From a virus: a DNA stretch of 56,790 nucleotides. The notes under the pieces are model-generated. The model worked only from the letters and a program-made list of their open reading frames with translations. It made no database searches and had not been told where the DNA came from. Made by a program: the position numbers and the translations under genes. Below are positions 3,001 through 41,000 of the stretch, piece after piece (the stretch's first letter is position 1; each line of letters begins with the position of its first letter). The stretch covers positions 1-56,790 of the IMG/VR virus record IMGVR_UViG_3300046820_001502; one strand, given 5' to 3'.

Positions 3001-4898
3001 AAATCATCGTAAGTAAATCCAGGTCTATCTGAAGTTCTCCAAGCTAAGTTCTCTAAAGAGAACATATATTTTTTAACTTTACCATCTCTAATGTTTGTAG
3101 ACTCTTTACCTCTTAATGGTGCGATGTTCAAGTTATATGTGTTATCTAAAATTGAATAGTCAAATTGTCTTCCTGTTGTTGTAATACCATCTGATTTTTG
3201 TAGATCGGCATAGGTATAATACGGTGTATCTTTTTGGAATACTCTACAATATTCTAATCCTGCCTGTGTTCCATCCGCTTGATTAACATATGATAAAACT
3301 CTTGAACCTTTAGTAATTTCTTTATATCCGTCGTTGAATACTTTTGAAACTTGATTAATTGCGGTACCAACGTGTTTTAATCTTGTCTGACCTTGTACTT
3401 GATCAGCAGCATCTACTAATCTTTGTGTTTCATAAAGAATTGATCCAGGTCTAAATTCAATATCGGTAGATTGATATTGTAAATAATCTGCCGATATCTG
3501 ATTAAAATCGTCATCAAGACTACCTGCACCTCCACCCTGAGTCGCTCTAAACCCTGCGTTAGGTTTGTATTTTGGTGAAGTCCAAACTAATTGTCCTGTT
3601 ATTCCACCACCATCACTATAAGATCTACCTTTTAAACCAAACTTAATTGATTCTTCATTTCCTTCATAAAGGATACTAAGAGCGTCAGGTCCATAAACAA
3701 TACTTTGTTGTTGAACTCCGAATTGATTTACAGGTAATTGGTTTGGTGGTCCGTCAATTTGTGCCGGTTCTGAATTTTCACTACCAACATAATAACCTGA
3801 AGATTGTGCTTTATCTTGATCAAATAATCTATTTACTGCTGCCGATGCTCCTGCAATTAAACCACCAATAAGACCTCTGTTATACGCTGGTCTATAAAGG
3901 TTATAATCTAAAGCCGAGAATAATGCCGATCTTTGACCGTTACCTGTATTAGCAACAAACACCTCAGAAGGATTTCTATACTTGTTTAATATAGGTGCTA
4001 ATAAACCACCCGTTAGATTATTTGCAACACCTAAAGCGGCTTCTGTTTGTGGTTTGTTAATTGGGTTATCGTCATCAAAATAATCTCCCGGTATAAATGA
4101 AACGGGGAAATATGTACCTGTCAATCTATTCGCAAAAGAAACCGCAGCTAAAGCAGGGTTTTCAGGAACCGTAATTTTCCAATTCTTAATAAAGAATGGT
4201 TGTTGTCCTGTCGCCAATAAACTTGCAGATAACGGATCACTAATCGTATCTAAATTAATCGCACCTATTGTTGCTTGTTGTAGTTCTTGTGATATTCTTT
4301 CATTAAACGCAAACTTCAATTGACTTGCACCAATTTTTGCCAAATAACTATCGGAAGATAAAGGTCCGTTTGAACCTACAGGATCATCTTGAAATACGAT
4401 ATTAAATGTAGGGTAAGATGAATAGTTATAGTATAATGGATCCCAATATGGTTGATATATATTACCATTATTTTGTATATCTGTTATAACTACTAAATCT
4501 TTGAATCCTCCTGAAGGACCCCATTTGTTCGTGACATAAGCCGATTCTATGAAAAACTCATTTACAATTAAAAGCGCACCACTTGTAGAAACTGTGTTTG
4601 CTGCGTATGGTCCTTGATTTGGGTTCAGTACAGGCGTTAAATTAACGGCAATAGGAACTCCAAATCCACCTTCAGGCCCATATTCATTTAATGGATATAA
4701 GTCTTGCGCAAATAAATTTGTTGATACAAAATTATTAGGAGAATCTACCACATTCGCAACCGTTAATACAGTTTCAAAATTAATAGGGTTACCAGGTGAT
4801 GTATATGAACCTGGCACGTTGTATGGTGGTAAATTCCTTACCAACAATTGTTTTCTGAATGTTTCAGAACTACCAAAAGACAAAAAACTTTCCGCCAT
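1..4898 (-). CDS. Very large baseplate/tail protein with OmpA-like domain (3' end outside window)
   Basis: The reading frame is open without a stop from an ATG at 4898 to the left edge, giving at least 1632 residues; the protein starts MAESFLSFGSSETFRKQ. About residues 880-970 (roughly 1980-2250) resemble an OmpA C-terminal domain: a VEIDMVGSASP strand, then a YNDKLSQRRNDSV helix like the N-x-x-LS-x-x-R-A signature that binds peptidoglycan. The rest is rich in Asn, Tyr, Gly and Gln, as in structural proteins, and I do not recognise a family. It follows the tape-measure gene in transcription order, where myophages keep baseplate hub and wedge genes. I infer a baseplate or hub protein whose OmpA-like domain might contact the cell wall. 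A TATTTAT element lies 12 bases before the ATG. The assignment rests on position and one domain. Confidence 0.6.
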   Translation of the reverse strand, partial: MAESFLSFGSSETFRKQLLVRNLPPYNVPGSYTSPGNPINFETVLTVANVVDSPNNFVSTNLFAQDLYPLNEYGPEGGFGVPIAVNLTPVLNPNQGPYAANTVSTSGALLIVNEFFIESAYVTNKWGPSGGFKDLVVITDIQNNGNIYQPYWDPLYYNYSSYPTFNIVFQDDPVGSNGPLSSDSYLAKIGASQLKFAFNERISQELQQATIGAINLDTISDPLSASLLATGQQPFFIKNWKITVPENPALAAVSFANRLTGTYFPVSFIPGDYFDDDNPINKPQTEAALGVANNLTGGLLAPILNKYRNPSEVFVANTGNGQRSALFSALDYNLYRPAYNRGLIGGLIAGASAAVNRLFDQDKAQSSGYYVGSENSEPAQIDGPPNQLPVNQFGVQQQSIVYGPDALSILYEGNEESIKFGLKGRSYSDGGGITGQLVWTSPKYKPNAGFRATQGGGAGSLDDDFNQISADYLQYQSTDIEFRPGSILYETQRLVDAADQVQGQTRLKHVGTAINQVSKVFNDGYKEITKGSRVLSYVNQADGTQAGLEYCRVFQKDTPYYTYADLQKSDGITTTGRQFDYSILDNTYNLNIAPLRGKESTNIRDGKVKKYMFSLENLAWRTSDRPGFTYDDLPVCEKGPNGGRIMWFPPYDLTFSDDSRPDFSQTNFMGRPEPIYTYKNTSRTGQLGFTIIVDTPSAMNTIIEKQLKGVQKERIDSIVDSFYAGCTKYDLYDLAAKFNTIPTKDLYTYQQILNNPRLTAEEQIQVLESIPQDTATNQPGAATGADGTQNGGQQGTTVATDPVFTDVDMTKYEGIGFYFDNDCPECTNSTAIVASQPYEYWYNSYIANKTTYTEKAPQKVQPEGGSVFSGSAVPNFFTDVVEGNFNYIKNTLLPQVKDILKNGGSVEIDMVGSASPTASVSYNDKLSQRRNDSVLKWFLAQPLDDGTTINTYYTAGENFKLKLIAKGETISIPATRSEASGTTDVNDNAVTNAQGGQVLFDSVNCTQDIQNLDAPGSPVTPISQVYSVPAMACRRVYIQRIRAKQKENPKPVQEKETATTSNNDKPNNVQNILTEPTQSIKPEPQVTVEQKIKNGISKQILRNLFSECDYFEVIKETDPMVFDSIKDKIKYFDPAFHSMTPEGLNARLTFLNQCVRPGQSIPIIGPDGRPKYNDALNTSFGAPPVLVLRIGDFFHTKIIPTSLGFTFNELDLNPEGIGVQPMIVKVSMGFNVIGGMGLKEPVQQLQNALSFNFYANTEIYDERATPTEDTTKKDQYVVEKITGGLPPVSPQQQAQINSVQPKKGGSTVGSIVDATVMDYTTLYGSLEEKLVQYFKSQYDSLSKINSDYGYGALQIANNSRNYTKGELSPFTPEKVETSIYGKTNKYQEFVEKLVVRVKDDISKNEDPFTKTLLADNTINAKQKRELEEKLTNIATERQTALLNVILNNTTNLVNVENELNFIFRQLDVIASKLDGSLSPSNEPLIYDLSGSTFFDPQETSGSIFDVYTFNVKNTIDTYNEFLDSYDMTYSYFKESTSTIDRDGCGFTIPLIKTFFQSCADNRFYILMTPLFTKSDSLTTLINDLQGGNEIKTNPNAVEQIKIIADALSANYISFQDYWKKQFTDLAETPEYK

Positions 4899-4949: not shown

Positions 4950-6749
4950 TTACTTATTTTTACCACCATTTGAAGACGAAGGTCCTATACCGTCTAACAC
5001 TACTTTTCTCAAACTAGCGGCAAATGCTGGGTCTTCTAACATTTTTTGTTTGATTTGTGCAACTTCGGTATCGGTTAATTTTAAAGTATTATTATCCCCC
5101 TCAACTTTTAAGTTAAAATTCACGTTTGCGTCAGATTTTGTTTCTACTTGTATTGGTTGTGAGTATGCCTTTTCAACTCTTTCCATTATTGATTTTTGTG
5201 AGATCTCAGTTTGTTTCATGAGGTTGTCTTCTAACCTTGATGTTACTGTACCAAAGTTTGTGAATAACTCGTCTAAGGCTTTATTTTGTCTATCTTTGTC
5301 ACCTGTAACCGCACCAGCGATAACATCCTCTAAAGGTCTGTATATCTCTTCTTGGTTTTTTCTCATGTCCTCAGTAGAACCAACTACATTAGAAAATCCT
5401 TTTGCAACATCTTTATAACTTTCAGATAGAGTACCATAAAATTTAGAAAGTGTTGGACTTGTTGCTTTTGCCATTTTTGCAGATACTTCACCACTTTTTA
5501 AGTAATTAAGGATTTGAGTTGTTTGATCCAATTGGTTCATTGCAATCTCTTCAATACTTTTTGAAGATTCCTCGTTAGCTCTTTGGAGTTGTTTAATATC
5601 GTCAGGTGTTAATTCCTCAACTTTTTTCTCTGTTGTAATTCCTGTTTCAGCATTTCTAACTTGTACCGTCGCAACACCATTTTTCATTTGAGCCATGGAT
5701 GCAATCAACTCTTTTGTTTCATCGTCTCCTGCAAAATTTGGCATTTTAATTTGTTTTAACTTCATTTCAAAGTCTGCAGATTTAAGAGCCATAGCGGCGA
5801 ATTCTTTTCCTGTCATACCAACAGCATCGGCAACTTCTCTCATTCTTCTTTTTGCACCAGGTAGGATTTCCATTTTACCTGTCTTCTCGTTGAATGTTGT
5901 AAATTCTTTACCAAGATTTACCATTTCTTTTTGTAACGCTTCAGGATCGTTTTGTGCCATGTCCATTGCTCTTAACGGATCTAATAAACCACTTGATGTA
6001 ACACCTAATCGTTGTAGTGCTGCTGACATATCAATTGCCTTTTCAGGATTCATTAAATTTTCCGCTTGTTGGAATACGTGGTCCATACTTATACCAAGTC
6101 TTTCTGAAGTTGCCGCCATTTTAGCTAATCCTTTAACACCAGTTTCAAAGTTGTACATATTCATTTCACCCAAATTAGCGACAACTTTTCCTGAAACTCC
6201 TGCAACTGAAACACCAACACTTCTCGCATAATCTGCAACTTCTTTCATTTGGTCTCCAACATCGTAAATTGAAACTCCTACATCTCTAAAACTAGCTGCT
6301 AGTGTTTCAATATTTTCACCTGTAAGTTGAGCAGCAGCGGATAATTCAACAACAGCTTCTTTACCAACACTAGCTGCGGTTCCCAAACCTTTCATTACAC
6401 TTGTTAAATTGGTTGCAAATTGATCTTCACTTATACCTAACTTAGCTAACTCAGGTCCGGCGTCTGCAATTGTTGTTTTGAATTCGTCAATTCTTGCCTT
6501 TGATAACCCAAAGCTTTGTTGTACAGATGTTGCATATTTATCCATATCCTCAAACACTTGAGAATCAAAAGGATTGATGGCACTAGCCATGCTTTTAACC
6601 GTATTATTGACAACACCCGCTAAAGAAGAAACGTTCATAGTAAAGGCATGGAAATCCTGTGAGGTTGAATTCACCATGTTTTTAAATTTTTCTCCTGTTT
6701 GAGAAAAATAATCTTTATTCTCTTGGGTAAAATCTTCTTCCCCTGCCAT
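4950..6749 (-). CDS. Probable tail tape measure protein
   Basis: 599 residues, close to the 590 of T4 gp29. The sequence is almost entirely alpha-helical with alternating Ala/Met/Val heptads and no enzyme motif. It has long amphipathic segments such as LGISEDQFATNLTSVMKGLG (residues 100-120) and helical blocks through the middle, as in the central region of tape measure proteins that occupy the tail tube lumen and set tail length. It lies directly after the sheath, tube and chaperone genes, the usual place for a tape measure. A polar C-terminus (about residues 530-599) could fold separately and contact the baseplate. If it behaves like gp29, its length predicts a tail of roughly 0.1 micrometre. 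The call rests on size, helicity and order rather than a diagnostic motif. Confidence 0.6.
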   Translation of the reverse strand: MAGEEDFTQENKDYFSQTGEKFKNMVNSTSQDFHAFTMNVSSLAGVVNNTVKSMASAINPFDSQVFEDMDKYATSVQQSFGLSKARIDEFKTTIADAGPELAKLGISEDQFATNLTSVMKGLGTAASVGKEAVVELSAAAQLTGENIETLAASFRDVGVSIYDVGDQMKEVADYARSVGVSVAGVSGKVVANLGEMNMYNFETGVKGLAKMAATSERLGISMDHVFQQAENLMNPEKAIDMSAALQRLGVTSSGLLDPLRAMDMAQNDPEALQKEMVNLGKEFTTFNEKTGKMEILPGAKRRMREVADAVGMTGKEFAAMALKSADFEMKLKQIKMPNFAGDDETKELIASMAQMKNGVATVQVRNAETGITTEKKVEELTPDDIKQLQRANEESSKSIEEIAMNQLDQTTQILNYLKSGEVSAKMAKATSPTLSKFYGTLSESYKDVAKGFSNVVGSTEDMRKNQEEIYRPLEDVIAGAVTGDKDRQNKALDELFTNFGTVTSRLEDNLMKQTEISQKSIMERVEKAYSQPIQVETKSDANVNFNLKVEGDNNTLKLTDTEVAQIKQKMLEDPAFAASLRKVVLDGIGPSSSNGGKNK

Positions 6750-6764
6750 AAATTACTTTATTTA

Positions 6765-6771
6765 ATAAATA
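6765..6771 (-). promoter_or_regulatory. TATTTAT late-promoter-like element
   Basis: TATTTAT on the coding strand, 15 bases before the ATG of the tape-measure gene (6749). Confidence 0.45.
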
Positions 6772-6774
6772 TTC

Positions 6775-6948
6775 TTAGTCAGTTTTTTTATTGTCTTCAA
6801 CATATTTGTTGATTAGATACTTTCTAACGTAAGTAGGCATTTTATAAAACTCTGAATATTGAGTTCTGAAGATTTTGGAAAAATAATAAAATTCGTCTAA
6901 AATGATTGACTTATACTGATATGAAAGGCCGAAAAAATTCCACCCCAA
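6775..6948 (-). CDS. Downstream half of tail-assembly chaperone (gp51-like), probably made by +1 frameshift
   Basis: A second frame is open from 6963 to the stop at 6775 and overlaps the end of the gp26-like gene. It reads GWNFFGLSYQYKSIILDEF and later MPTYVRKYLINK, which recalls the short gp51-type proteins of T4-like phages (a WN...L.Y start, then P-x-x-x-R-[KR]-[YFW] near the end). There is no ATG before 6843, where one would remove the first half. The start given is a possible TTG at 6948. More likely the ribosome shifts +1 at TTT TTT CGG (6937-6929), where the second TTT can re-pair as TTC and the A site would hold a rare CGG codon. The fused product would be about 301 residues. Tail chaperone pairs ahead of the tape-measure gene are commonly made by programmed frameshift. 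Real coding is likely; the start mechanism is inferred. Confidence 0.55.
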   Translation of the reverse strand: MGWNFFGLSYQYKSIILDEFYYFSKIFRTQYSEFYKMPTYVRKYLINKYVEDNKKTD

Positions 6949-7681
6949 AAGTAATGTCGACCATTACTCTTTCTCCTGACGGGGCTATAACTTCTTTTAC
7001 TAAATCTAATCTAGGTTCGTTTTCAGCCATAAACCTTCTAATAAATTTTGAATCTCCAATTGGCATTTGTTCCACAAACGTAGCAATATTTGTTCTATCG
7101 GAACTTCCATCTATTTCTACAATTTGACGAGTTATTCTTGTTGTTACAGTTGGCGATACACGACCAACAGGTGTTGACTGTAGAATTCTTTCAATTTCAA
7201 TTCTATCTCCAATAGTTAGAACTTTTAATTTAATATTTTTTTTAGATACAGGAAGAGTCACTTCAAACAACCCATCATCATTTGGTTTTTCTTTAGTTTG
7301 TTTAATGTTTAACTCATCTAACAAAATTGTAGTTGTAAACCTTTGTTCTGTTTTTGGGTCTGTTGATGAAATTGTATATTCAGGGCCAAAAGATGTATTT
7401 CTTAAAAATAAAAGAATCGCCTCAACATCACCATCAATTAATTCTTCAGGTCTTAAATCTCTTTCATATAACTTATTTCTAAGTAATGGTAATATAATAC
7501 TTTCTTGAATTGTTTTTTTAAAGTCGGCATCGGCAATTATGTTTTCGTCAACAGCGGTTAAGTAACCTATCTTAACAGATTTCTTTTTTGATTTGTAAAA
7601 AATACCCATACTTGGTAATGTGATTACATCATGTGGTAAATTAAACTCAGCTTGTCCTGCTGCATATACGTCTTGTTCCAT
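6911..7681 (-). CDS. T4 gp26-like baseplate hub / tail assembly chaperone
   Basis: 256 residues. The N-terminal LPHDVITLPSMGIFYKSKKK, followed by the IGYLTAVDENII segment, matches the start of the T4 gp26 family (T4_baseplate): LPS-x-G-x-FY, then a strand, then a helix beginning near 'EE-x-I'. T4 gp26 is somewhat shorter (208 residues). Genes of this family lie just before the tape measure and act with gp51 in hub assembly, probably as tail chaperones. The zero frame ends six codons after a TTT TTT CGG site; the overlapping +1 frame continues for 51 codons. No TATTTAT lies directly upstream; a terminator at 7706-7740 separates this gene from the tail tube gene, so its promoter is unclear. The family assignment comes from motif memory and gene order. 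Confidence 0.6.
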   Translation of the reverse strand: MEQDVYAAGQAEFNLPHDVITLPSMGIFYKSKKKSVKIGYLTAVDENIIADADFKKTIQESIILPLLRNKLYERDLRPEELIDGDVEAILLFLRNTSFGPEYTISSTDPKTEQRFTTTILLDELNIKQTKEKPNDDGLFEVTLPVSKKNIKLKVLTIGDRIEIERILQSTPVGRVSPTVTTRITRQIVEIDGSSDRTNIATFVEQMPIGDSKFIRRFMAENEPRLDLVKEVIAPSGERVMVDITFGVEFFRPFISV

Positions 7682-7761: not shown

Positions 7762-8250
7762 TTAGTATACCAAGATACAACGGTCCATTCTCATAGATGA
7801 TGTGATAGTTGCAATACCATCTTGTGAATAAGATAATTGTCCACCATCATATTTTGTTAAGAAGGTTCCTTCCAAAATCCATTTCTCAACAACAACACCT
7901 GTTGGGTCTAACATTTCTAAATCCACATTTTTCTTATATCCCGCAGCATATCCCATACGACCTGTAACTGACTCAGCACATAAACGTATCCACTCCATTA
8001 GAGCTTGTGAAGCTGAAGGTCCGATAGGGTCTCTGAAGGTAACACCAAGTTCACCCCAAGTAAATCTACCTGCAACATATGTTGAAGTGTTCAAAAACTG
8101 AATCTCTGTTGCCGCGATTGTTAAACTCGGTCTTGATGTTGTTTCTACATACCACTCGTTGATCCCCAATGAAGAAGGGAATCTTAGAATCCAACGGTTT
8201 TGCCTTTTCGGCTCGTAAGGAATCGGCATTTTCATTAATAAATCAGCCAT
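7762..8250 (-). CDS. Tail tube protein (T4 gp19-like)
   Basis: 162 residues, almost the same length as T4 gp19 (163). It is a compact beta-rich protein. It contains NRWILRFPSSLGINEWYVETTSRPS, written here in parts: NRWILRFPSS (residues 17-26) and EWYVETTSRP (31-40). It then has the TWGELGVTFRDPIGPSASQ stretch (about 64-82), which resembles the conserved 'w..i.vtf.D' strand of gp19 tube subunits, and ends in a strand-rich segment with ILEGTFLTKYDGGQLSYS (about 123-140). The tube is the inner hollow cylinder around which the sheath contracts. The gene is one removed from the sheath gene, with a HAD phosphatase inserted between, and has its own TATTTAT element 34 bases upstream and its own terminator, as expected for a highly expressed late gene. 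Confidence 0.85.
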   Translation of the reverse strand: MADLLMKMPIPYEPKRQNRWILRFPSSLGINEWYVETTSRPSLTIAATEIQFLNTSTYVAGRFTWGELGVTFRDPIGPSASQALMEWIRLCAESVTGRMGYAAGYKKNVDLEMLDPTGVVVEKWILEGTFLTKYDGGQLSYSQDGIATITSSMRMDRCILVY

Positions 8251-28245: not shown

Positions 28246-30624
28246 TTAGAATTCTTTTCTTAAATTTCCTTCGTAGAACTCAAACCTATCATGTTCTGTT
28301 GGTGTCATCAAAAGAACTCCGGCATTAATTTTACCTTGTTTCATCTCTTTATAACAGTGAGACATTAAAGTTTGCTCGTAAGGATAAGTGAACTTAGTTT
28401 CGATATAACATTTGTAATTACCTTCTTGTGAAAGAATTATTGGCCAGTTAGACAAATAAACTTCACCTGTCGCATATGGAATACCGTCATAAATTTTTAT
28501 GTTTTTATATTCTAAATAAGGTGCGTTTGGATCTTGTCCGTTTACAGGTAATTTTGGATTGTCAGGCCAATGCTCATCTCTATATGCTTTGTCTACATTA
28601 TACCAAGCCCACTGTTTTTCATGACTACCATAAAACTCAGTAAAGTTGAACTTTAAAAAATCAAAGTTTTCTTTTCTTGTAATTTGTAAAACTTTTTCAT
28701 ATAAATTATTTGTTTTTCTTAAAAACCCATTTCTACAAGATGTTTCAGCTCCACCGTAGAAAAACATATCATCCTCAAAGAAAATATAATAATCCATGTC
28801 AGATTCATTAAAATGTTCGGCAACAAACACTCTACCACCTGTAATACCTATGTTATCTTTTTTAATGTGCTCAAATCCGTATTGTTCACAAAGTTCTAAG
28901 TATCGTGGTGTGGTTGATAGATCTGTTGAGTTATTTAGTAAAAACTTTTTAGTTCTTGTAAGAAAATCATTATCATATAACTCCATAGATCGTATTAGAG
29001 TTTCAAATTGTTTAGGACTATTAAATGTGATTACGTATAAACCAACATCTCCATTCTTTTTGATTTTAATCGGATCTTCTTTTCTAAAACTTTTAATAAC
29101 TACTGAATCATTTTTTACGTCCTCAAAAAACTTATAAAGTAATCCATTTGATTCGATTTCTACATAATCAATATTTTTTGGACTCGTATAAGTCATGATT
29201 GAAAATAAACTTTCTTCAGTACCCATCAAACCTCTGTTAAGTGTTGATTTCATTAGATCATAATACAAAGTATTCATTTCTCTAATCAAAGGTTTTGGTC
29301 CACCAAAAAATCCACCCCTACAAACTTTATTAACTCGTTGACCAACAAGTTCAGTCATAGAATTAATTTCAAAACCGTGGATCTCGTTGTCGGCTTCATA
29401 TGGGAATGCAACAAATGTAAAATTATCAAATAAGTTGTCTATTTTTGGTAATACATTATCGTGAGTAAAGTAACCTATATTAACTGTGTTGGCAATACCG
29501 GCATCTAACCAATATAATTTTTGGGAATTGAATTTGTCTAAAATAACCGCATCGTGCAGTAAAAACATTTTTGACATTACAAGAGGGTTATACATTTCTA
29601 ATTTGGCCTGTGTCGAATCTTTTAACCAACCCGCCAAATTATACCAATCAGGATTTGTTCTAATTTCTTGTATTTTATCGTAAAACTCTCCTTTGAACCA
29701 AGATTGATCTCTTAAAATGAATTGAGTATTTTCATGACTTCTTTTTGTAAATACAAAACTTTCTAATTCTGCATCACCAAAAATTATCATATTACAAGGA
29801 ATGTCTAAGAACTGTAAAAACTTTTCTAAATAATGTTGATACGATCTTGCCCATCCTTCAGTTAACCCATCTCTTTTGATATCCCATAAACCTGTAACTA
29901 ATGTAAGTTTTGAGTCTATTTTTTTTACAACTTCTTTTGGTTCTAAAGTTGCCTTAATTTCATCGTGTACGTCTTTTCTAATCGCATCAATATCCATATT
30001 ACCCAATATCTCATAAAGATAACCAGCCTCTGTTAACTTGTTTGTGATGTTAGTTTTTTCTTCGTCAGTCATATTACACCACTCTAACCGAATTAAACTT
30101 GGTCTAAACTTTCCTAAATCAATTTGTTTAAAGATTGTATAATCGTGTCCTTCAGTATCAACAGATAAAACATCAAAATGATCTATTCCGTGTTTTTGTA
30201 CTAATGTGTCCCAAGTAATACAATTAACCTCAACGTCAACGGCATATTTTTCAACAACTTCTCTATCACCTTCACTACCCATACCATTTTTAGATGGATC
30301 AATTACACTCATACCATAAAAAGCAGGATGAACTAAACCTTCGTCAACAACTTCGATTGGGATTGTTTTCATAGTTATAGTTCCATTAAAATCACTTACC
30401 GCAGAGTTTTCAAATTTGTTGCCAGGGTTATTACTCTTATGATTAACTAATCTCTCAAAATGAGGTTTCATAGGCTCAACATATAAAACATCCGAATTAT
30501 AGATTTGGGCGTATCCACTCATACTATCAAACATAACACCATCCATTGCTCCGATGTTAATCATAAATAATTTTTGGCCCTTTCTACCGTAATAATGTAA
30601 TACCTTATCAAAAAAATCTTCCAT
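28246..30624 (-). CDS. Three-domain enzyme: FkbM methyltransferase + HtrL/YibB-type + glycosyltransferase
   Basis: 792 residues. Residues about 1-210 are an FkbM-type SAM methyltransferase: INIGAMDGVMFD (22-33) for SAM binding and VLSVDTEGHDYTIF, the D-x-E-G-x-[DE] FkbM signature. Residues about 235-500 (LTLVTGLWDIKRDG, YWLDAGIANT, RGGFFGGP) resemble the HtrL/YibB family of putative glycosyltransferases. Residues about 520-792 have VGLYVITFNSPKQFETLIRS and FFEDDMFF (about 615), a GT2-like arrangement with a D-x-D metal site. The product probably transfers and O-methylates sugars. It follows the next HtrL gene by 9 bases and is the last enzyme of the block before an adhesin gene. Acceptors are unknown: phage virion protein or host glycan. 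Confidence 0.7.
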   Translation of the reverse strand: MEDFFDKVLHYYGRKGQKLFMINIGAMDGVMFDSMSGYAQIYNSDVLYVEPMKPHFERLVNHKSNNPGNKFENSAVSDFNGTITMKTIPIEVVDEGLVHPAFYGMSVIDPSKNGMGSEGDREVVEKYAVDVEVNCITWDTLVQKHGIDHFDVLSVDTEGHDYTIFKQIDLGKFRPSLIRLEWCNMTDEEKTNITNKLTEAGYLYEILGNMDIDAIRKDVHDEIKATLEPKEVVKKIDSKLTLVTGLWDIKRDGLTEGWARSYQHYLEKFLQFLDIPCNMIIFGDAELESFVFTKRSHENTQFILRDQSWFKGEFYDKIQEIRTNPDWYNLAGWLKDSTQAKLEMYNPLVMSKMFLLHDAVILDKFNSQKLYWLDAGIANTVNIGYFTHDNVLPKIDNLFDNFTFVAFPYEADNEIHGFEINSMTELVGQRVNKVCRGGFFGGPKPLIREMNTLYYDLMKSTLNRGLMGTEESLFSIMTYTSPKNIDYVEIESNGLLYKFFEDVKNDSVVIKSFRKEDPIKIKKNGDVGLYVITFNSPKQFETLIRSMELYDNDFLTRTKKFLLNNSTDLSTTPRYLELCEQYGFEHIKKDNIGITGGRVFVAEHFNESDMDYYIFFEDDMFFYGGAETSCRNGFLRKTNNLYEKVLQITRKENFDFLKFNFTEFYGSHEKQWAWYNVDKAYRDEHWPDNPKLPVNGQDPNAPYLEYKNIKIYDGIPYATGEVYLSNWPIILSQEGNYKCYIETKFTYPYEQTLMSHCYKEMKQGKINAGVLLMTPTEHDRFEFYEGNLRKEF

Positions 30625-30633
30625 ATCTAATTT

Positions 30634-31521
30634 TTAAATTCCTAATTCCGTCTCAAAAAAATGAACGAAGTGTGTTTTATTTTTAATTGATTCTCTATCG
30701 AAAACCGGAGTTGTGAGCCAAAAGTCTTCATGATACCAAGTATCAAAACTGAATGTTTTAAACATATCAGGATTTTCGAACTCTAAGTTTGTAATCATAC
30801 CTTCGTGATTTAATATATGATTTTCATTTAAACATAAATTACTTATTATATCAAATTCTTGTATGAACCATTTTATTTTTGAAATGTGTCCTCCCAAAAT
30901 ACCACCAACAGACATATGTTTATAATCATTATTATTTTTATAAACTTTTCTAATCTCATTTGGGTTATGTGAAAACATGGTATTTGCCAAGTTGATTAAT
31001 TTATCGCCAACCCAATTATTTATCTTTGGGAATAATTCAGGACAAAATATTTTTGTAAATGAATAGTTTTCCCAATCTCGAGATAAACCAGTAATCTTAT
31101 CGGAGTAAGGATTATATTTTAAGGTAAACAATCCTCTGTGAGATAAACCACAATCAATCCAATAAATGTAGTCATAGGATTCGTCGTATTCTTTTGAAAT
31201 AAGGTATATTTTATTCCAATCAACTTCATGGTAGAAATTAAATTGTTCGTTAGATTTTTTAATCTCTAACATTCTTTCCGTTTTTGGGTAGTCTTTAAGA
31301 TTTGAAATTTTAATCGTTACGTTATTTAAATTAAATTCCTCACAATATTTTTGTAACAAATCAAATTGAGTTTCATTACAATAACATATAATTTCATTAT
31401 TCATGTTATTTAATGTCCTTAAAGAATGTAAGTATCTTTCTTGTCTTGCAAATGACTCGTGACCAAAAAAAGGAAACCCAATAATATCGGTATAAAAGGC
31501 GGTTACTAGCTTTGTCTTCAT
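30634..31521 (-). CDS. HtrL/YibB-family putative glycosyltransferase
   Basis: 295 residues, starting KLVTAFYTDIIGFPFFGHES, then DYIYWIDCGLSHRG (about 137-150; the W-x-D-x-G site of the family) and HMSVGGILGG (about 201-210), corresponding to the GGFFGG block in the composite neighbour. This matches the WlaTC/HtrL family found in lipopolysaccharide and capsule clusters, presumed to be a nucleotide-sugar transferase with a GT-A fold. The donor cannot be told from sequence. Its ATG overlaps the carbamoyltransferase stop by 4 bases, indicating translational coupling, and 9 bases separate it from the three-domain enzyme, whose middle segment is a paralogue. Confidence 0.7.
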   Translation of the reverse strand: MKTKLVTAFYTDIIGFPFFGHESFARQERYLHSLRTLNNMNNEIICYCNETQFDLLQKYCEEFNLNNVTIKISNLKDYPKTERMLEIKKSNEQFNFYHEVDWNKIYLISKEYDESYDYIYWIDCGLSHRGLFTLKYNPYSDKITGLSRDWENYSFTKIFCPELFPKINNWVGDKLINLANTMFSHNPNEIRKVYKNNNDYKHMSVGGILGGHISKIKWFIQEFDIISNLCLNENHILNHEGMITNLEFENPDMFKTFSFDTWYHEDFWLTTPVFDRESIKNKTHFVHFFETELGI

Positions 31522-33095
31522 ATTCTTTTTCTAAAATAGTAATCACCTAATAAAAGACAATCCATTTCTGTTTTATCGTAAACCGAAATCGCATCACTAT
31601 ATCGAGAAAGTATTGGTTTTCCATTAACGTTGAACGATGTATTTAATAATACCCCTATACCTGATTGTTTCTCAAACTCAGTTAATAAATTGTATAACCA
31701 AGGGTTTTGTTCTTCAGTTACGGTTTGTACTCTTGCTGTACCATCTACGTGTGTAATTGAAACTAATTTTTCTCTCCACTCTTCTTTTACAGTAGGACAA
31801 AATCCCATCCACTTACTTTCACCCTCAAAATTAAAATATTTAGATACGTCTTCTAATTTACATACAGGGGCAAAAGGTCTATACCACTCTCTGTTTTTTA
31901 CTTTAGCATTTAATATATCTTTCATGTTATCATAAGCAGGATTACAAATAATACTTCTATTCCCTAAAGCTCTCGGACCATGTTCTGCATTACCTCTGAC
32001 AACACCAACAATTCTTCCATCTACTAAATCCTTAACTAACATTTCTGTCTCTAAAGGTAAAGCGTGTCTTTCCTCAACATGAGACATTAATGTATGTTTA
32101 TCTAAAATTGGAATACCTGCGTATGTAATGTCGATAGCCTTTTCAGGTTTAATATGATTTAACATCATTCCTGTTGCAATTCCACAATCATTTGGATTGG
32201 GTGGTACAAAAACTGGTCTATCAAGTTCTTGGTGTAACTTTGTGTTTAACAATATGTTTAATGCACAACCACCAACAAGTATTAAAGGTATATTTGGGTA
32301 TTGATCTAAAAATGGTATAGTTAACTCCATAAACACATTCTCAAATGCAATCTGAGAAGTTTTAGCAACATCCCAACCTATTTGACCCGTTAATCTATTT
32401 TCAAAATCAAAAGAAAGACCTGTTTGTTCTGCCAACTCATTTAAATAACCTAAGTAATTATTTCCGTCAGGTTTTTTTCTATAGTATTCTTCGAAGTGTG
32501 GCAACCAATCTTCATTAACATTACCATAAGAACAAAGTCCCATAATTTTTCCTGAGTAAACTAAATTACCAATATTAAGTGCCGGTTCTTTTGTAATATC
32601 ACCCAAGTAATCACCAAATGACATATATGGAAACCCTAAATCAGTATTAAATTTTTCAATAAGGTTTATGTTATTTCTGTCTTCCGCATGATACACATTA
32701 AAGAATCCATCATTACCTCCTCCATCAAATGAAATAATTAAAGCTTCGTTATAATCTGTTTGGTATAAACCACAAGCAGCATGGCTTAAATGGTGTAGTG
32801 AATTAATATATTCTTTTGCCGGTATTAACTCTTGATAATGAACCTTTGTTGTGTGTTCGATTGTATCCGCATTTAAGTAATAACATTTATCATATTCTGA
32901 AATTCCATATTCATCTTTAATAAATTGTAAAATATGTTTTAACAAAAAGGGTCTTGAGTATGAAATTAAATATTGTGCGTAACCTGCGTTTTTTTGGGTA
33001 AGAAATCTTTCGACTTCTATTACCACAATAATTTTTCCTTGATCCTCAACAACAACCGCAGAATTGTGAGATCCGTAAAATGAAATGTTTGCCAT
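31518..33095 (-). CDS. Carbamoyltransferase (NodU/CmcH family)
   Basis: 525 residues. The N-terminal Kae1-like domain shows HHLSHAACGLY (101-111) and ISFDGGGNDG (121-130), and in the middle LVGGCALNILLN, the metal/nucleotide pocket of this family. The C-terminal YrdC-like-to-transfer part has EHGPRALGNRSI, RPFAPV and FNVNGKPI. Members such as NodU, CmcH and TobZ use carbamoyl phosphate and ATP to place a carbamoyl group on a sugar or antibiotic hydroxyl. In this block it likely decorates a glycan made by the neighbouring transferases. It is 10 bases downstream of the GT60-like gene and overlaps the next by 4. No late-type TATTTAT precedes it. Confidence 0.9.
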   Translation of the reverse strand: MANISFYGSHNSAVVVEDQGKIIVVIEVERFLTQKNAGYAQYLISYSRPFLLKHILQFIKDEYGISEYDKCYYLNADTIEHTTKVHYQELIPAKEYINSLHHLSHAACGLYQTDYNEALIISFDGGGNDGFFNVYHAEDRNNINLIEKFNTDLGFPYMSFGDYLGDITKEPALNIGNLVYSGKIMGLCSYGNVNEDWLPHFEEYYRKKPDGNNYLGYLNELAEQTGLSFDFENRLTGQIGWDVAKTSQIAFENVFMELTIPFLDQYPNIPLILVGGCALNILLNTKLHQELDRPVFVPPNPNDCGIATGMMLNHIKPEKAIDITYAGIPILDKHTLMSHVEERHALPLETEMLVKDLVDGRIVGVVRGNAEHGPRALGNRSIICNPAYDNMKDILNAKVKNREWYRPFAPVCKLEDVSKYFNFEGESKWMGFCPTVKEEWREKLVSITHVDGTARVQTVTEEQNPWLYNLLTEFEKQSGIGVLLNTSFNVNGKPILSRYSDAISVYDKTEMDCLLLGDYYFRKRI

Positions 33096-33105
33096 TATTA
33101 TATTT

Positions 33106-34350
33106 TTATAAATTTCCTGTTATTCTATCACACCAACCTTTAGATGTTGAGTAAGGCCAAACAACCCAATATTTAGGTTTTTTAGTTGTATTGAATTCTC
33201 TCCATACTTTACAGTATCCATCAGGATCTCTAAAGAAACCGTTTATTTCATTAATATCTGCATCTCTTCTATATAAAGTTTCATCATTTTCATCGTGAAA
33301 AGCAACTACCCAATATTCATAATCTTTTTCAGGAACACTCACATAATTTACGTCTATACAGTGTTTGAAGATTGTTGAAAATGATTTCTTCCATTCCTCT
33401 TCTGTCTCGAAGTTATAGGTGTTTGGTGGATATTTTTTGTCAATTGTCTCTTGTTGGATTCCTCTTGACTCAAACAAAACACCAGCATATTTTTCATAGT
33501 CACTTACGGTTCTTTCAGTTCCAAACCATAAAGAATAATCTCCATCAAATTTTTCACCGTCAACTCCTAAAAGTTGTCTGTTTTTAATATGACAAGCTGT
33601 GTTTCTTAAATGCCAATCTTTGTCATCGTCCCACTGTTTAGTTCTACCTTTTCTTGTGTATTCGTGCCAAATTAAAACTTTGTGTGGATGGAATAAATCA
33701 TAACCATATGTATAAGCTCTTACTGAAATTGAAATTTCTTCTCCGTGAAAATAAAATTCAGGATCATGTTGAACTTCAGTTGAAAATTCACCTAAAGTAA
33801 AACAATAATGTGCTGAGTAAAATCTTGCAGGAACAGGTTGTTTCATTTCTTGCCAACCTGGAATTGATTCAGGCAAGAAGAATACAACACCTTCAGGTGT
33901 AAATCTATCAAATGCCATTCTCCATGGTTCTCTAACACGACCTTCAGGATCATTATCAGGATCAAATGATGAAACATATCCTGTTAAAAGAGGTTTTTTA
34001 TGTCCTTTCTTTTGAAGTTGTTTAATCATTTTAATCATTTCATCATCCCAATTCTTTTCGAATCTCATGTGAGAATCGATTTGAAGAGTATACTCCTCAC
34101 CACCATACAGTTGTTGGACTTGATGTCTTGCCCAACAAACCCCTTTTGATTCTGTGTAAGGAATATTTAGGATTCTAAATCTTTTATCTTTTTCATACTT
34201 AGATAAATCATCAAAACCATCTTCAGGATGGAATTGTCTTGCAACACCAATAATTACATTTTTTGGTCTTTTTGCGTTTTCCAACATATTTTCTATTGTT
34301 GGTATTAGTTGAGGGTCGCGATACGCAGCGATTTGTACAAATATTTTCAT
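33106..34350 (-). CDS. GT60-type (GlcNAc) glycosyltransferase acting on polypeptides
   Basis: 414 residues. It starts KIFVQIAAYRDPQLIPTIEN, then GVCWARHQVQQLYGGEEYTL and QIDSHMRF (D92-S-H94, the D-x-H/D-x-D-like metal site), followed by FYSAHYCFTLGEF and YFHGEEISISVRAYTYGYD. These are the marks of the GlcNAc (PF11397) family, whose characterised eukaryotic members are Dictyostelium Skp1 hydroxyproline GlcNAc transferase and Trypanosoma mucin Thr-GlcNAc transferases (CAZy GT60). The family assignment is confident from motifs; the phage acceptor is inferred. Because the phage also encodes many Thr-rich linkers, its own adhesins are plausible substrates. The gene follows the 100-residue small protein gene by 37 bases. 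Confidence 0.8.
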   Translation of the reverse strand: MKIFVQIAAYRDPQLIPTIENMLENAKRPKNVIIGVARQFHPEDGFDDLSKYEKDKRFRILNIPYTESKGVCWARHQVQQLYGGEEYTLQIDSHMRFEKNWDDEMIKMIKQLQKKGHKKPLLTGYVSSFDPDNDPEGRVREPWRMAFDRFTPEGVVFFLPESIPGWQEMKQPVPARFYSAHYCFTLGEFSTEVQHDPEFYFHGEEISISVRAYTYGYDLFHPHKVLIWHEYTRKGRTKQWDDDKDWHLRNTACHIKNRQLLGVDGEKFDGDYSLWFGTERTVSDYEKYAGVLFESRGIQQETIDKKYPPNTYNFETEEEWKKSFSTIFKHCIDVNYVSVPEKDYEYWVVAFHDENDETLYRRDADINEINGFFRDPDGYCKVWREFNTTKKPKYWVVWPYSTSKGWCDRITGNL

Positions 34351-34387
34351 AAAACAAAAATATTATACACATTCCAATAGTAAATTG

Positions 34388-34690
34388 TTAGGGACCTTCG
34401 AATAAATAAATCACATCATCTTGGAACATGAAGACCTCAAAGTCCTCAAATTGTTTACCATAAAGTATTCCACAACTTAGTAATACAAATTTTTCACAAC
34501 CTAAAGAATCAACAATTTTTAAAAGTAAAGATACAACATTATCAAGTGGTGGCGGAACAACAAATTGGTATGGAGTTACAATTGTTGTTGCACTTGAAAC
34601 TAAAAAACAATAAGTCAAAGTAACATCACAAACATAAATGTCATATGGTGAATTACCTGATATAGAATTTATTTGGATTATGTTTGCCAT
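34388..34690 (-). CDS. Small virion-associated protein of unknown function
   Basis: 100 residues: MANIIQINSISGNSPYDIYVCD, YCFLVSSATTIVTPYQFVVPPP (both partly quoted) and GCEKFVLLSCGILYG. It is beta-rich with four Cys and no signal peptide or helix-turn-helix. Similar short MAN-initiated proteins accompany fibre genes, and this one lies between a LamG-type adhesin and the sugar-enzyme genes with its own TATTTAT element 7 bases upstream, so I infer a small tail or fibre component. The hydrophobic stretch around residues 55-60 (VVSLLLKIV) is too short to be a membrane segment. Function not recognised. Confidence 0.5.
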   Translation of the reverse strand: MANIIQINSISGNSPYDIYVCDVTLTYCFLVSSATTIVTPYQFVVPPPLDNVVSLLLKIVDSLGCEKFVLLSCGILYGKQFEDFEVFMFQDDVIYLFEGP

Positions 34691-34697
34691 GATACTA

Positions 34698-34704
34698 ATA
34701 AATA
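34698..34704 (-). promoter_or_regulatory. TATTTAT late-promoter-like element
   Basis: TATTTAT on the coding strand, 7 bases before the ATG at 34690. Confidence 0.45.
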
Positions 34705-34736
34705 GTTATGATAAAATTATTTAAATTTCAAAAACC

Positions 34737-35720
34737 TTAAATGTATCTTGTATACGTATTGTTGTAATATTGTACGATATCAGAATTTGATAATGCAATA
34801 TCGTATATTAATACTTCACCAACATTACCTTGCAAATATTCATTACTTACTGTTTTTGCGATTTGTATCGCACTTGTTGTGACATTATGTCCTGAAGGTG
34901 TATCTGAACCAACTAAAACACCGTTAACCAATATACTTCTTGTTGTACCATCATATTTTACAACAGCATTAAACCACCCATTTGTTGGTGACACGGAACT
35001 TGTCACAACTAAATCATTACCCCACCAATAATTTATTACTTGATTAGTTCCTCCGGCTCTAAATGCATTTGATTGGTTACCAGTTCCAAATGAACCAACA
35101 CTCATAAATCCATTACCACCCCAATTAGTACCAAGTTGTACCCATATTATAAAAGTATAATCTGAGTTTCCTGTCGGTAAGTTAGTTCCTGATGGATTAC
35201 TAAACCATCCATTAGACCCTGTTGAGAAATAAACCGCTCCTGTATTATTCCAAGTTATACTACCTGAGTTTACCATGGTAACATCATTTCCATTACCACT
35301 TAAATCATACCAAGTAGTACCCGCACCTGAGTAACTATTAGGGTCGGCAGCATCTAAATGCAAACTTAAATTAGAAACGTATGAGGTCCAGTATCCTTGA
35401 TTGTTTAAATAAGTTTTACATTGACTTCCCGTTGTAAATGTTTGATTAAAAACTCCATTTACTAAGTTAACAAAAGATTGTTCTGTTTTAACTTTTGATC
35501 TCAAAAATCTAATATATGCCGGTACATTATCAGGATTAGGTTGATTACCAAAAAAGTTAGGTCTACATATAACATAACCCAAATCTTCATCAGGACCATT
35601 CCACCATCTTGGTAAACCTGTAAATCCTGTGGTTGGGAAACCTACCGCCAAGTCTCCAATCTGTAATGTTCCTGAAATTGTTGATCCTGTGTTAAAAGCA
35701 AAAGGTCTTGTTGTTGACAT
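34737..35720 (-). CDS. Tail fibre/adhesin with LamG-like lectin domain
   Basis: 327 residues. The first 115 (ISGTLQIGDLAVGF, RWWNGPDEDLGYVICRPNFF, PAYIRFLRSK) form a virion-attachment module. Residues about 118-327 are a concanavalin-like/LamG domain: LSLHLDAADPNSYSG, WYDLSGNGNDVTM, FTFIIWVQLG-like strand (YTFIIWVQLGTNW), WFNAVVKYDGTTRSILVNG and a final GNVGEVLIYDIALSNSDIVQ. This is the usual order of strands in phage and bacterial LamG-type sugar-binding domains. It probably binds a host surface glycan. A TATTTAT element lies 15 bases upstream. It stands between two glycosyltransferase genes. Confidence 0.75.
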   Translation of the reverse strand: MSTTRPFAFNTGSTISGTLQIGDLAVGFPTTGFTGLPRWWNGPDEDLGYVICRPNFFGNQPNPDNVPAYIRFLRSKVKTEQSFVNLVNGVFNQTFTTGSQCKTYLNNQGYWTSYVSNLSLHLDAADPNSYSGAGTTWYDLSGNGNDVTMVNSGSITWNNTGAVYFSTGSNGWFSNPSGTNLPTGNSDYTFIIWVQLGTNWGGNGFMSVGSFGTGNQSNAFRAGGTNQVINYWWGNDLVVTSSVSPTNGWFNAVVKYDGTTRSILVNGVLVGSDTPSGHNVTTSAIQIAKTVSNEYLQGNVGEVLIYDIALSNSDIVQYYNNTYTRYI

Positions 35721-35735
35721 TATTGTAGTTTAACA

Positions 35736-35742
35736 ATAAATA
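35736..35742 (-). promoter_or_regulatory. TATTTAT late-promoter-like element
   Basis: TATTTAT on the coding strand, 15 bases before the ATG of the LamG adhesin (35720). Confidence 0.5.
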
Positions 35743-35749
35743 TCATTAA

Positions 35750-36676
35750 CTACACTATTTCCAATACTTTGTTATAAACCGCAAATATTGTTGGGTGACA
35801 CTCAAATGTTTCTTTTCTTTCTAAACAATTAACTAAAGATGGGATGCCTTGTATTGATCCCCACTCTCTAACACCATATTTTATGTTGGAAGCGCAATTA
35901 AGACCACAACCACCAACAACATAATGGTATTTGTATTGTTGCGATCCTCGTCTAAATGGTGATCTAAACTCAGGATTTATAGAGCTACCTAATTGAATTA
36001 TTTCAGCATCTGTTGTTCCTGCCAAATGTAGTAAACCAGAATCCATGGTTATGAAACACATACTATTGTGAATTAAATGCCAAGCCTGATCCATATCCGT
36101 GTTGTTCATTAAATTTAAACCTAAGTTGATTGGAAAATTAAAAACAGGTTTATCAACATTAGATCCGCCAAGTTCTGAAGAATCTTTACCAATTGACACA
36201 ACCGCAATTCCTTTTTGATTTAAAAGTTTCGTTAACATTTGCCAATTTTTTGCATCCCAAGTTCTTGAGTTCCAATTTTGAACAGGATGTATTAAAACGT
36301 ATTTTTCAGGTAGACCCTCTATTTTTTCAATTGATTTTGGTATGTAATCCATCCCCATCTCATCTTTGGTTAACATAAACCCAAGATTGATTGCATGAAA
36401 TTGTCTAATATCCATGGCGTTATGTTTATAACAAACCCCATTTGGGTGATATCCAACATTAAATGAAACAAAGACTTCATGTGTTTCTTTTAATTCATCT
36501 GTAACTTCAGTAAAGATTTGATCAACACAAGGATTATTAGAAAATAAATATGGGTGGTGTGTTGCGACAGATATTTTTTTACCGTAAGAATAGTAAAGTT
36601 TTCTTAAAGTTGGTGTAACTGCTAAGGTATCACCTAACGCTCTACAACCTAATACATCAATACAAACATTTTTCAT
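35750..36676 (-). CDS. Heptosyltransferase-like glycosyltransferase (GT9 fold)
   Basis: 308 residues with a GT-B arrangement typical of GT9: LGCRALGDTLAVTPTLRKLY near the start (G-D-x-[LI] motif), HPVQNWNSRTWDAKNWQML (about 145-163; the H/S-x-x-x-x-x-[KR]-x-W donor region) and ITMDSGLLHLAGTT (about 214-227; D-S-G-x-x-H). The C-terminus carries GGCGLNCASN and later VNCLERKETFEC; a four-Cys arrangement like the iron site of TibC-type protein heptosyltransferases is possible, though spacing differs. It would move a heptose or similar sugar from a nucleotide donor. It is the first enzyme of the minus-strand block and is divergent from the 974-residue composite, which also holds a GT9-like domain. 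Confidence 0.8.
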   Translation of the reverse strand: MKNVCIDVLGCRALGDTLAVTPTLRKLYYSYGKKISVATHHPYLFSNNPCVDQIFTEVTDELKETHEVFVSFNVGYHPNGVCYKHNAMDIRQFHAINLGFMLTKDEMGMDYIPKSIEKIEGLPEKYVLIHPVQNWNSRTWDAKNWQMLTKLLNQKGIAVVSIGKDSSELGGSNVDKPVFNFPINLGLNLMNNTDMDQAWHLIHNSMCFITMDSGLLHLAGTTDAEIIQLGSSINPEFRSPFRRGSQQYKYHYVVGGCGLNCASNIKYGVREWGSIQGIPSLVNCLERKETFECHPTIFAVYNKVLEIV

Positions 36677-36742
36677 ACAAAAATTATAACTAATAGATCT
36701 ATTAAAATACAGAATTAGAAAATTGTTTTTATTATTAAGAGT

Positions 36743-39691: not shown

Positions 39692-39725
39692 AAAAACCCC
39701 CATCTTTTCAGGTAGGGGTTTTTTT
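39692..39725. terminator. Bidirectional terminator between convergent genes
   Basis: AAAAACCCC (39692-39700) pairs with GGGGTTTTT (39715-39723) around a 14-base loop, in the 56-base gap between the composite transferase and the giant fibre. It has T runs on both strands and overlaps the fibre's stop region. Confidence 0.75.
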
Positions 39726-41000
39726 ATGCTGGACAAGCGTGTGCCGCAATACAAGTCGTACAGTCACTATATTGTGCGGTTATTGTTCCTACTGATACGG
39801 TTGCGGGCCCAGTACTAGATGAAACAAAGTCAAAACATACACCAGTAAGAGGATCATAAAATCCACTGAATCCCATACCACCTTGAGCTAATACAACTTG
39901 GTTAGTGTTTAAACAACAGTTATAAACTTCGTAATAATTACAAGGGTTGGATTCTAAACACTTTTCACAAGTATCATAAGGAGTATCAGTGTAAAAATTA
40001 CTTGTTGGTGTATCTGTCGTTATTGACACACAAACATAACAGTTATCACTTATTACTTCAAGATAACTTAATCCAATTGTAAATACTCCATATGCGACTT
40101 GTGTTACGCCAGTTTCACAACAAGCCGAGAATAAATAATAGTCAGGACAGCCACCAACATCTAAACGACATTGTGTACAATCATCAAATTGTTTGGAGTT
40201 ATAAATTGGTACTGGCCAACTTACAGTACCCGTTAAGTCCCAAGAAGTAACTTCCCAACAAACACCATTTGTGTCTGTAAATATAGTCCCTGTTTGTGGG
40301 ACAAACGCTTGAGTTGCATATACCTCAACTTGTAAAGGGTTACAACAATTTCTTATTGTAACATAAACAACTTCAGGACAAGGATTTGCTGTTTTACAAG
40401 CTTCACATCCACCAAAATATTGGCTAGCTAAAGATATACTATAATTTGTTGGTAATTGATTTACTTGTGTATTAATTACCCAACAAAAACCATTTGTGTC
40501 TATCCAAATTTCTCCAATAGATACAGTTCCGGCTGGTATTGATATGATTTCTTGAGGTAAAACCTTACAACATGAATTAATAAACCAAAACTCAGGACAC
40601 TCATTTGTGGTAATACAGTCATCACAATTTGTGTATCCCGTTGTTCCAATTGTAATTGTTGGTGCTGTTACAGGTGCCCCGGTTCCAGATGTAACATTCC
40701 AACACAATCCATTATCATCAACAAAAGTATCACCAACTACTAAATCTAACGAACCTGTAACATATTCAAGTCCAGTAACACAACAACTATCAATTACCGC
40801 ATTATCAGGACAAGGGTTACTTGATATACAAGAAGAACAACTTGCGTAATTGGTCACTAATGTTCTAATACTATTTGGTGCTGCAAGTGTAGTACTTTCT
40901 ATTTCCCAACAGTTATCTTGAGCATCACTCCAAAATGTTCCTATCGTTAAACTACTACCAACAATAATTTCAGTTACAGTTGGTTCACAACAGTTTCTTA
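39724..41000 (-). repeat. Six Cys-rich modules at the fibre tip
   Basis: Six units of about 65-75 residues, each [NSA]-C-C, then about 25 residues, G-x-C-[WYF], then about 25 residues, C-x2-C-x5-C-[PN]. Units are diverged (for example NCCEPTV..., SCCVTGL..., ACCETGV...). Disulphides or metal sites are likely; I do not recognise the module. Confidence 0.8.

Follow-up and report, generated by a model that had tools for sequence, protein, structure and literature searches.

The window analysed here is the whole 56,790-nucleotide stretch of viral DNA, which carries a run of tail genes on its minus strand (Table 1). The central gene encodes 256 residues and scores 29.1 bits against Pfam PF12322, the family of T4 gp26 (cut-off 24.5), and E 2e-12 against PHROG 150, which is annotated as baseplate hub. 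It lies directly between a gp19-like tail tube gene, which also matches Pfam gp19 at E 1e-5, under that model's cut-off, and a tape-measure-like gene; tail tube, chaperone, tape measure is the order by which a G/GT pair is recognized. The predicted model (mean pLDDT 62) of the fusion of this protein with the +1 frame described below consists of a mixed G part, then a loose linker of low confidence, and three T helices. In the PDB, its fold comes closest to 2ob9, a tail assembly chaperone of HK97, and to 3klu, the phage-like protein YqbN; both score Z 5.4, well over the next match (3.4), yet below 8, and support a chaperone identity without proving one. A sequence search of the PDB yielded no relative. 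The phage is T4-like and has dozens of relatives.

Table 1. Features of the tail chaperone locus, in window coordinates.
Feature	Position	Strand	Evidence or remark
Tail tube gene (gp19-like), directly upstream of chaperone gene	7762..8250	minus	PHROG 4542, E 1e-21
0-frame gene, putative short tail assembly chaperone (G-like, TAC-N; T4 gp26-like)	6911..7681	minus	PF12322, PHROG 150
Upstream RNA hairpin	6942..6985	minus	covariation and fold z, protein sequence preserved
Outer stem RCCCC/GGGGU	6985-6981 with 6946-6942	minus	
9-nt bulge NTCNGGAGA	6980-6972	minus	
Inner stem	6971-6962 with 6956-6947	minus	
7-nt spacer KGARUUU, hairpin base to P-site codon	6935..6941	minus	same length in 67/67 aligned relatives
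Candidate shift site UUU_UUU_CGG	6929..6937 (E-site 6937-6935, P-site 6934-6932, A-site 6931-6929)	minus	TTT TTT in 68/68 deduplicated relatives, among the matches listed
+1 frame, putative T-like C-terminal part of long chaperone (TAC-NC)	6775..6930	minus	51 codons and TAA
Tape-measure-like gene, directly downstream of chaperone gene	4950..6749	minus	PHROG 10613 tape measure, E 3e-4

The words TATTTAT/ATTTATA occur within 25 nt upstream of 15 of the 30 ORFs of at least 100 aa, for example at 6750-6775, and 68 times in the whole window, both strands counted; a similar motif stands ahead of the tape-measure gene in all close relatives and is perhaps a promoter or translation signal. Elsewhere on the minus strand, two giant ORFs (39724-49302 and 49421-53536; 3192 and 1371 aa) consist largely of 9-nt-based tandem repeats, in a region of higher GC and strong AT skew, and are probably collagen-like structural proteins. 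A run of ORFs at 28246-39667, inside the structural region, resembles glycan- or sugar-related enzymes, by eye only.

The 0-frame of the chaperone gene ends GTG GAA TTT TTT CGG CCT TTC ATA TCA GTA TAA on the minus strand, so that an earlier note on this DNA, which had the gp26-like frame stop shortly past GAA TTT TTT CGG, was correct (TAA at 6911). Past TTT TTT C, the +1 frame continues as GGC CTT TCA ... for exactly 51 codons (GLSYQYKS...MPTYVRKYLINKYVEDNKKTD), the number given in the same note, up to a TAA at 6777-6775. That these codons looked conserved is borne out by their pN/pS, which in nine diverse members is 0.23 in the +1 frame past the 0-frame stop versus 1.40 and 1.79 in the other two frames; by this measure, the +1 frame is under purifying selection. 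The P-site codon of the candidate site is Phe 250 (F250), the only place in the whole gene where the shift word TTTC occurs in frame. The CGG that follows, already taken to be rare, makes up 3 of the 18,295 codons of the window, level with CGC as the rarest sense codon. Synonymous differences are depleted, to ~0.3 of the expected number, in two islands (codons 229-240 and 244-255), and the ratio is near 1 elsewhere in the gene; the slip site shows no variation at synonymous positions, and part of the DNA conservation downstream of it is attributable to conserved protein in two overlapping frames. A -1 frameshift of the X_XXY_YYZ type is out for the window, as the -1 frame at the junction is closed within about 12 codons and offers no in-phase heptamer. 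There is no phage-encoded tRNA in the window, and no sign of a 3' RNA stimulator, the fold z being about 0 just past the site and at most -0.97 around +44.

In IMG/VR, a first set of 22 relatives includes 20 that reach the junction, and all 20 agree in offset, in tail, and in slip site. A degenerate scan with GGNGTNGARTTYTTYCGNCC, in which TTC is permitted at both Phe codons and any CGN is accepted, returns at least 80 loci, at least 79 of them in the gene family of the window; the relatives counted here are related sequences, not independent events. Among the matches listed, TTT TTT is found in 68 of 68 deduplicated relatives and TTC never, on a background in the same genes of 19% TTC (126/669) and 81% TTT for Phe. 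The Arg codon, again among the matches listed, is CGG in 41 of the 68, CGT in 13, CGC in 12, and CGA in 2; its third base is free to vary, and the first +1 residue is thus Gly, Val, Ala, or Asp. Since the scan pattern itself demands CGN, these counts speak to the third base and not to whether other A-site codons occur. Where the earlier note had looked to homologues for conservation of both TTT-TTT-C and CGG, the former is therefore invariant among the matches listed, and the latter is one of the CGN codons that the scan requires. The clade of the window has the properties of a UUU_CGN site, a P-site UUU that is never UUC and a rare A-site codon (CGG, by the window count), and the +1 tail is kept in every relative that has the junction.

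As the site is a T6 homopolymer, the offset could be thought a sequencing or assembly error in a genome that is truly fused in one frame; this is refuted by its recurrence in isolate genomes of related phages and, across different studies, in some 100 independent contigs, and is given practically no weight. Alternatively, the downstream frame could be a separate small gene, initiated at a start of its own (for example a TTG that lies 14 nt before the P-site) or by re-initiation past the 0-frame stop. This TTG, which lies in the +1 frame and comes from TTTGGGG, is present in 58 of the 68 relatives among the matches listed; however, it is absent in the other 10, and is a consequence of the conserved TTTGGGG. 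In 4 of 68 members of the window clade and 16 of 70 of a related clade, the relevant stretch has no ATG, GTG, or TTG, and in no relative of the window's clade does the downstream frame have a conserved ATG of its own; homologues with such an ATG and an RBS would, as the earlier note had held, refute its reading. The distant homologues L121 (about 3229-3550) and L126 (about 3217-3500) do have, right past the G stop, the T-like domain in an ORF of its own with an ATG, and separate initiation may there stand in place of a frameshift. For the window, where it would also leave the invariant TTT TTT unexplained, a separate gene is very improbable.

Just upstream of the slip site, the RNA forms a predicted hairpin with a bulge between its outer and inner stems; its 5' arm lies in codons 233-237 (RCC CCG TCA GGA GAA), and the outer partner reads GGG G.. 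in codons. Across 67 aligned relatives, 84% of the cells of this hairpin are paired, falling to 49-58% when the partner is slid by one base; 100 cells are changed on both sides, where shuffles give 42±5, and covariation scores 0.267 versus 0.152±0.007 in shuffles (0/500). The outer stem of L154, CACC/GGTG, is a compensated change, and RNAalifold recovers the outer stem unprompted. Relative to a null in which synonymous codons are reshuffled with the protein sequence fixed, the 45 nt that end 7 nt upstream of the P-site codon have a mean fold z of -2.24 (68 sequences), versus -0.18±0.22 elsewhere in the gene. The bulge is nearly invariant in nucleotides, with GG in all and GGAG in most of the 67 relatives, for which pairing provides no explanation. 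Homologues L031-L043, whose site is UUU_UGG, have a hairpin of their own, of a different type (GACATCC-CGAT-GGATGTC), about 5-25 nt upstream of the P-site codon; its mean z is -2.24 (11 sequences), and its column covariation is not counted, because the pairing register differs between sequences. In the remaining UGG clade, the hairpin signal is no more than suggestive.

A GGGGU is found 8-12 nt upstream of the slip codon, but is paired within the hairpin. An internal Shine-Dalgarno sequence is a less favored candidate stimulator, as the GGAG sits in the bulge, ~39 nt upstream in the linear sequence, and few genes of the window use Shine-Dalgarno sequences, a core standing before the start of 4 of 30 ORFs. 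A bacteroidete host is suggested by this low use together with the relatives from Flavobacterium. Among Bacteroidia, prfB frameshifting is common even though the anti-Shine-Dalgarno is occluded (PMC8710568).

In other clades, the site takes several forms. Stretches related to Microcystis phage Mel-JY01 (>600, of which 80 were examined) mostly have TTT TTT TGG CCT and a +1 tail, and L111-L125 have TTC TTT TGG, also in the +1 layout; the site is TTT CTT TGG in Flavobacterium immuto phages, TTC TTT CGT in Streptococcus phage SagM-GXN1, TTT TTT CAC in Bacillus SP-15, and TTT TTT AGT in Listeria LIS04. The direction is likewise +1 in the related clades with UUU_UGG, CUU_UGG, or UUU_CGU, and among 79 representatives of several clades that match the main pattern, the P-site codon is UUU in 77, CUU in 2, and UUC in none. 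Scans with the SP-15 and Streptococcus phage proteins returned almost no further relatives. Among L028, L136, and L137, the records of SP-15 and the Flavobacterium immuto phages give just a fragment of the +1 tail (39 and 36 aa) as a separate ORF, and in that of Listeria LIS04, no part of it is annotated.

These variants bear on the main alternative, transcriptional slippage, in which RNA polymerase, stimulated by the nascent hairpin behind it, would drop one U from the U6 run, and the shortened mRNA would yield the identical fusion protein. The hairpin stands closely before the run, which is invariant (U7 in the related clade), and stem-loop-driven loss of one base has a precedent at T5C5 in a Roseiflexus IS element (PMC5009743). 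However, homologues with the +1 layout do without such a run: UUC_UUU_UGG has U4 (L111-L125), UUU_CUU_UGG (L136) and UUC_UUU_CGU (L025) have U3, and L024 has UUU_CUA. A slippage site should show a long homopolymer run in all relatives; here it is U6, and elsewhere U4 or U3, and slippage without a stimulator is described at runs of about 9 (PMC5009743). Further, four non-U bases (KGAR), which would mismatch on realignment, separate the hairpin from the run, whereas the known hairpin is directly adjacent. Slippage by the polymerase thus appears unlikely.

The jumbo-phage relatives L027 and L133-L135, and also L138, L139, and L140, have instead at this FF position the canonical heptamer for a -1 shift, U_UUU_UUC; the named phages that have it are Agrobacterium Atu_ph07, a Synechococcus phage, and Aeromonas phiAS5. 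T4 gp26 has neither the +1 site nor the -1 heptamer. As read from these sites, the direction of the shift is thus different within one gene family, and on a tree of 36 proteins, unrooted and with long branches, it changes at least two or three times. Profiles of the T-like domain form a chain from the window clade to the UGG clade (95%), from there to the -1 clade (95%), and on to the C-terminus of gp51 (95%). Compared directly, the T domain of the window and gp51 match with a probability of 1%, and BLASTP of the fusion versus T4 gp51 gives no match; the putative link from the T domain to gp51 runs only via this chain through the UGG and -1 clades.

The best-supported reading of the locus is the +1 frameshift that the earlier note had proposed for the tail chaperone pair, and it has passed the comparative tests; three things escaped that note, namely that a hairpin with covariation lies upstream, that relatives differ in direction (+1, -1, duplication), and that slippage in U6 is an alternative. 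We consider it highly probable that programmed +1 frameshifting at UUU_CGG produces a short and a long tail assembly chaperone, the hairpin probably promoting the slip. The sequence itself shows how the genes are laid out, that the +1 frame is under coding selection, that the shift site is invariant, and that a conserved, covarying hairpin stands at a fixed distance; we infer that slippage occurs and with what efficiency, that the hairpin stimulates it, and what the proteins do. The majority of ribosomes would end at the 0-frame TAA and release the short G-like protein. In a minority, while UUU (Phe 250) occupies the P site and CGG, a very rare codon, waits in the A site, the ribosome would slip one base forward, tRNA-Phe re-pairing from UUU to the better-matched UUC, and translation would go on through the 51-codon T-like domain. 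In the UUU_CGN motif, the A site is held by a slow CGN codon while tRNA-Phe favors UUC over UUU (PMC3498833, PMC5052127). The hairpin, re-formed behind the ribosome, would pull the mRNA from the exit channel and so probably promote the forward slip; with 7 nt between its base and the P-site codon downstream, it would take the place of the Shine-Dalgarno helix in prfB. Synthetic upstream hairpins on the E-site side stimulate +1 shifts on 70S ribosomes as internal Shine-Dalgarno mimics (PMC6321510), a stimulation for which the A site had to be starved (no RF2). By analogy with lambda G/GT, the short and the long form would bind the tape measure and bring in subunits of the tail tube. We lean slightly towards a broader view, by which this is a natural +1 site stimulated in cis by a hairpin in the position of the prfB Shine-Dalgarno helix, is widespread in phages whose genes hardly use Shine-Dalgarno sequences, and has arisen at least twice with different hairpins (in the window clade and in L031-L043).

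The core of this arrangement is not new, because UUU_CGN is a known +1 motif that has already been proposed for haloviral tail chaperones. Lambda G/GT (Xu, Hendrix and Duda; review PMC5009743) uses a -1 shift on a classical heptamer, whereas the window would combine a 5' hairpin with a +1 shift on UUU_CGN; for HSTV-2, a +1 shift in the tail chaperone gene is proposed (PMC5009743). The same is proposed for haloviruses of the HF1 group, at TTT_CGC within a conserved 15-bp stretch; these are archaeal viruses, six genomes were compared, and the available text reports no upstream hairpin (PMC7230728). Influenza A PA-X and plant amalgaviruses share the P-site UUU followed by C, the rare A-site CGN, and the +1 direction, but employ eukaryotic ribosomes, and the portions available of their descriptions do not mention a conserved 5' hairpin (PMC3498833, PMC5052127). 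In prfB (RF2), the +1 slip in the P site is likewise aided by a duplex just upstream of it; particular to the window are a hairpin within the mRNA and a sense codon. T4 gene 60 bypassing also has a 5' stem-loop that re-forms at the mRNA exit and is proposed to move the ribosome forward (PMC5009743), but over a hop of 50 nt rather than one base. What is new here is a covarying RNA hairpin that ends 7 nt upstream of a P-site UUU, akin to the synthetic Shine-Dalgarno-mimic hairpins; few natural +1 shifts driven by a hairpin are known, and the open-access papers searched yielded no natural phage +1 site with a conserved 5' hairpin.

According to a 2016 review, G-T frameshifting is conserved widely among the long-tailed phages, T4 excepted. 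T4 gp26 shares PF12322 with the window gene, and the C-terminus of gp51 is tied to the T-like domain through the -1 relatives, but T4 obtains its two forms, short and fused, from two genes (26/51, duplicated), without frameshifting, according to a citing source (Vladimirov, Gautam and Davidson 2022, cited in PMC10885494). The T4-type chaperone gene would thus resort to +1 shifting, -1 shifting, or duplication, all at the same point, and with three solutions at one point, the evolution of a switch in direction becomes testable. Gene callers cut short or misname the long chaperone, as in SP-15, Listeria LIS04, and the Flavobacterium immuto phages, which list it as a small hypothetical ORF or omit it. 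The upstream hairpin, if active, would represent in nature, and in dozens of natural variants, a kind of stimulator that is mainly known through synthetic constructs.
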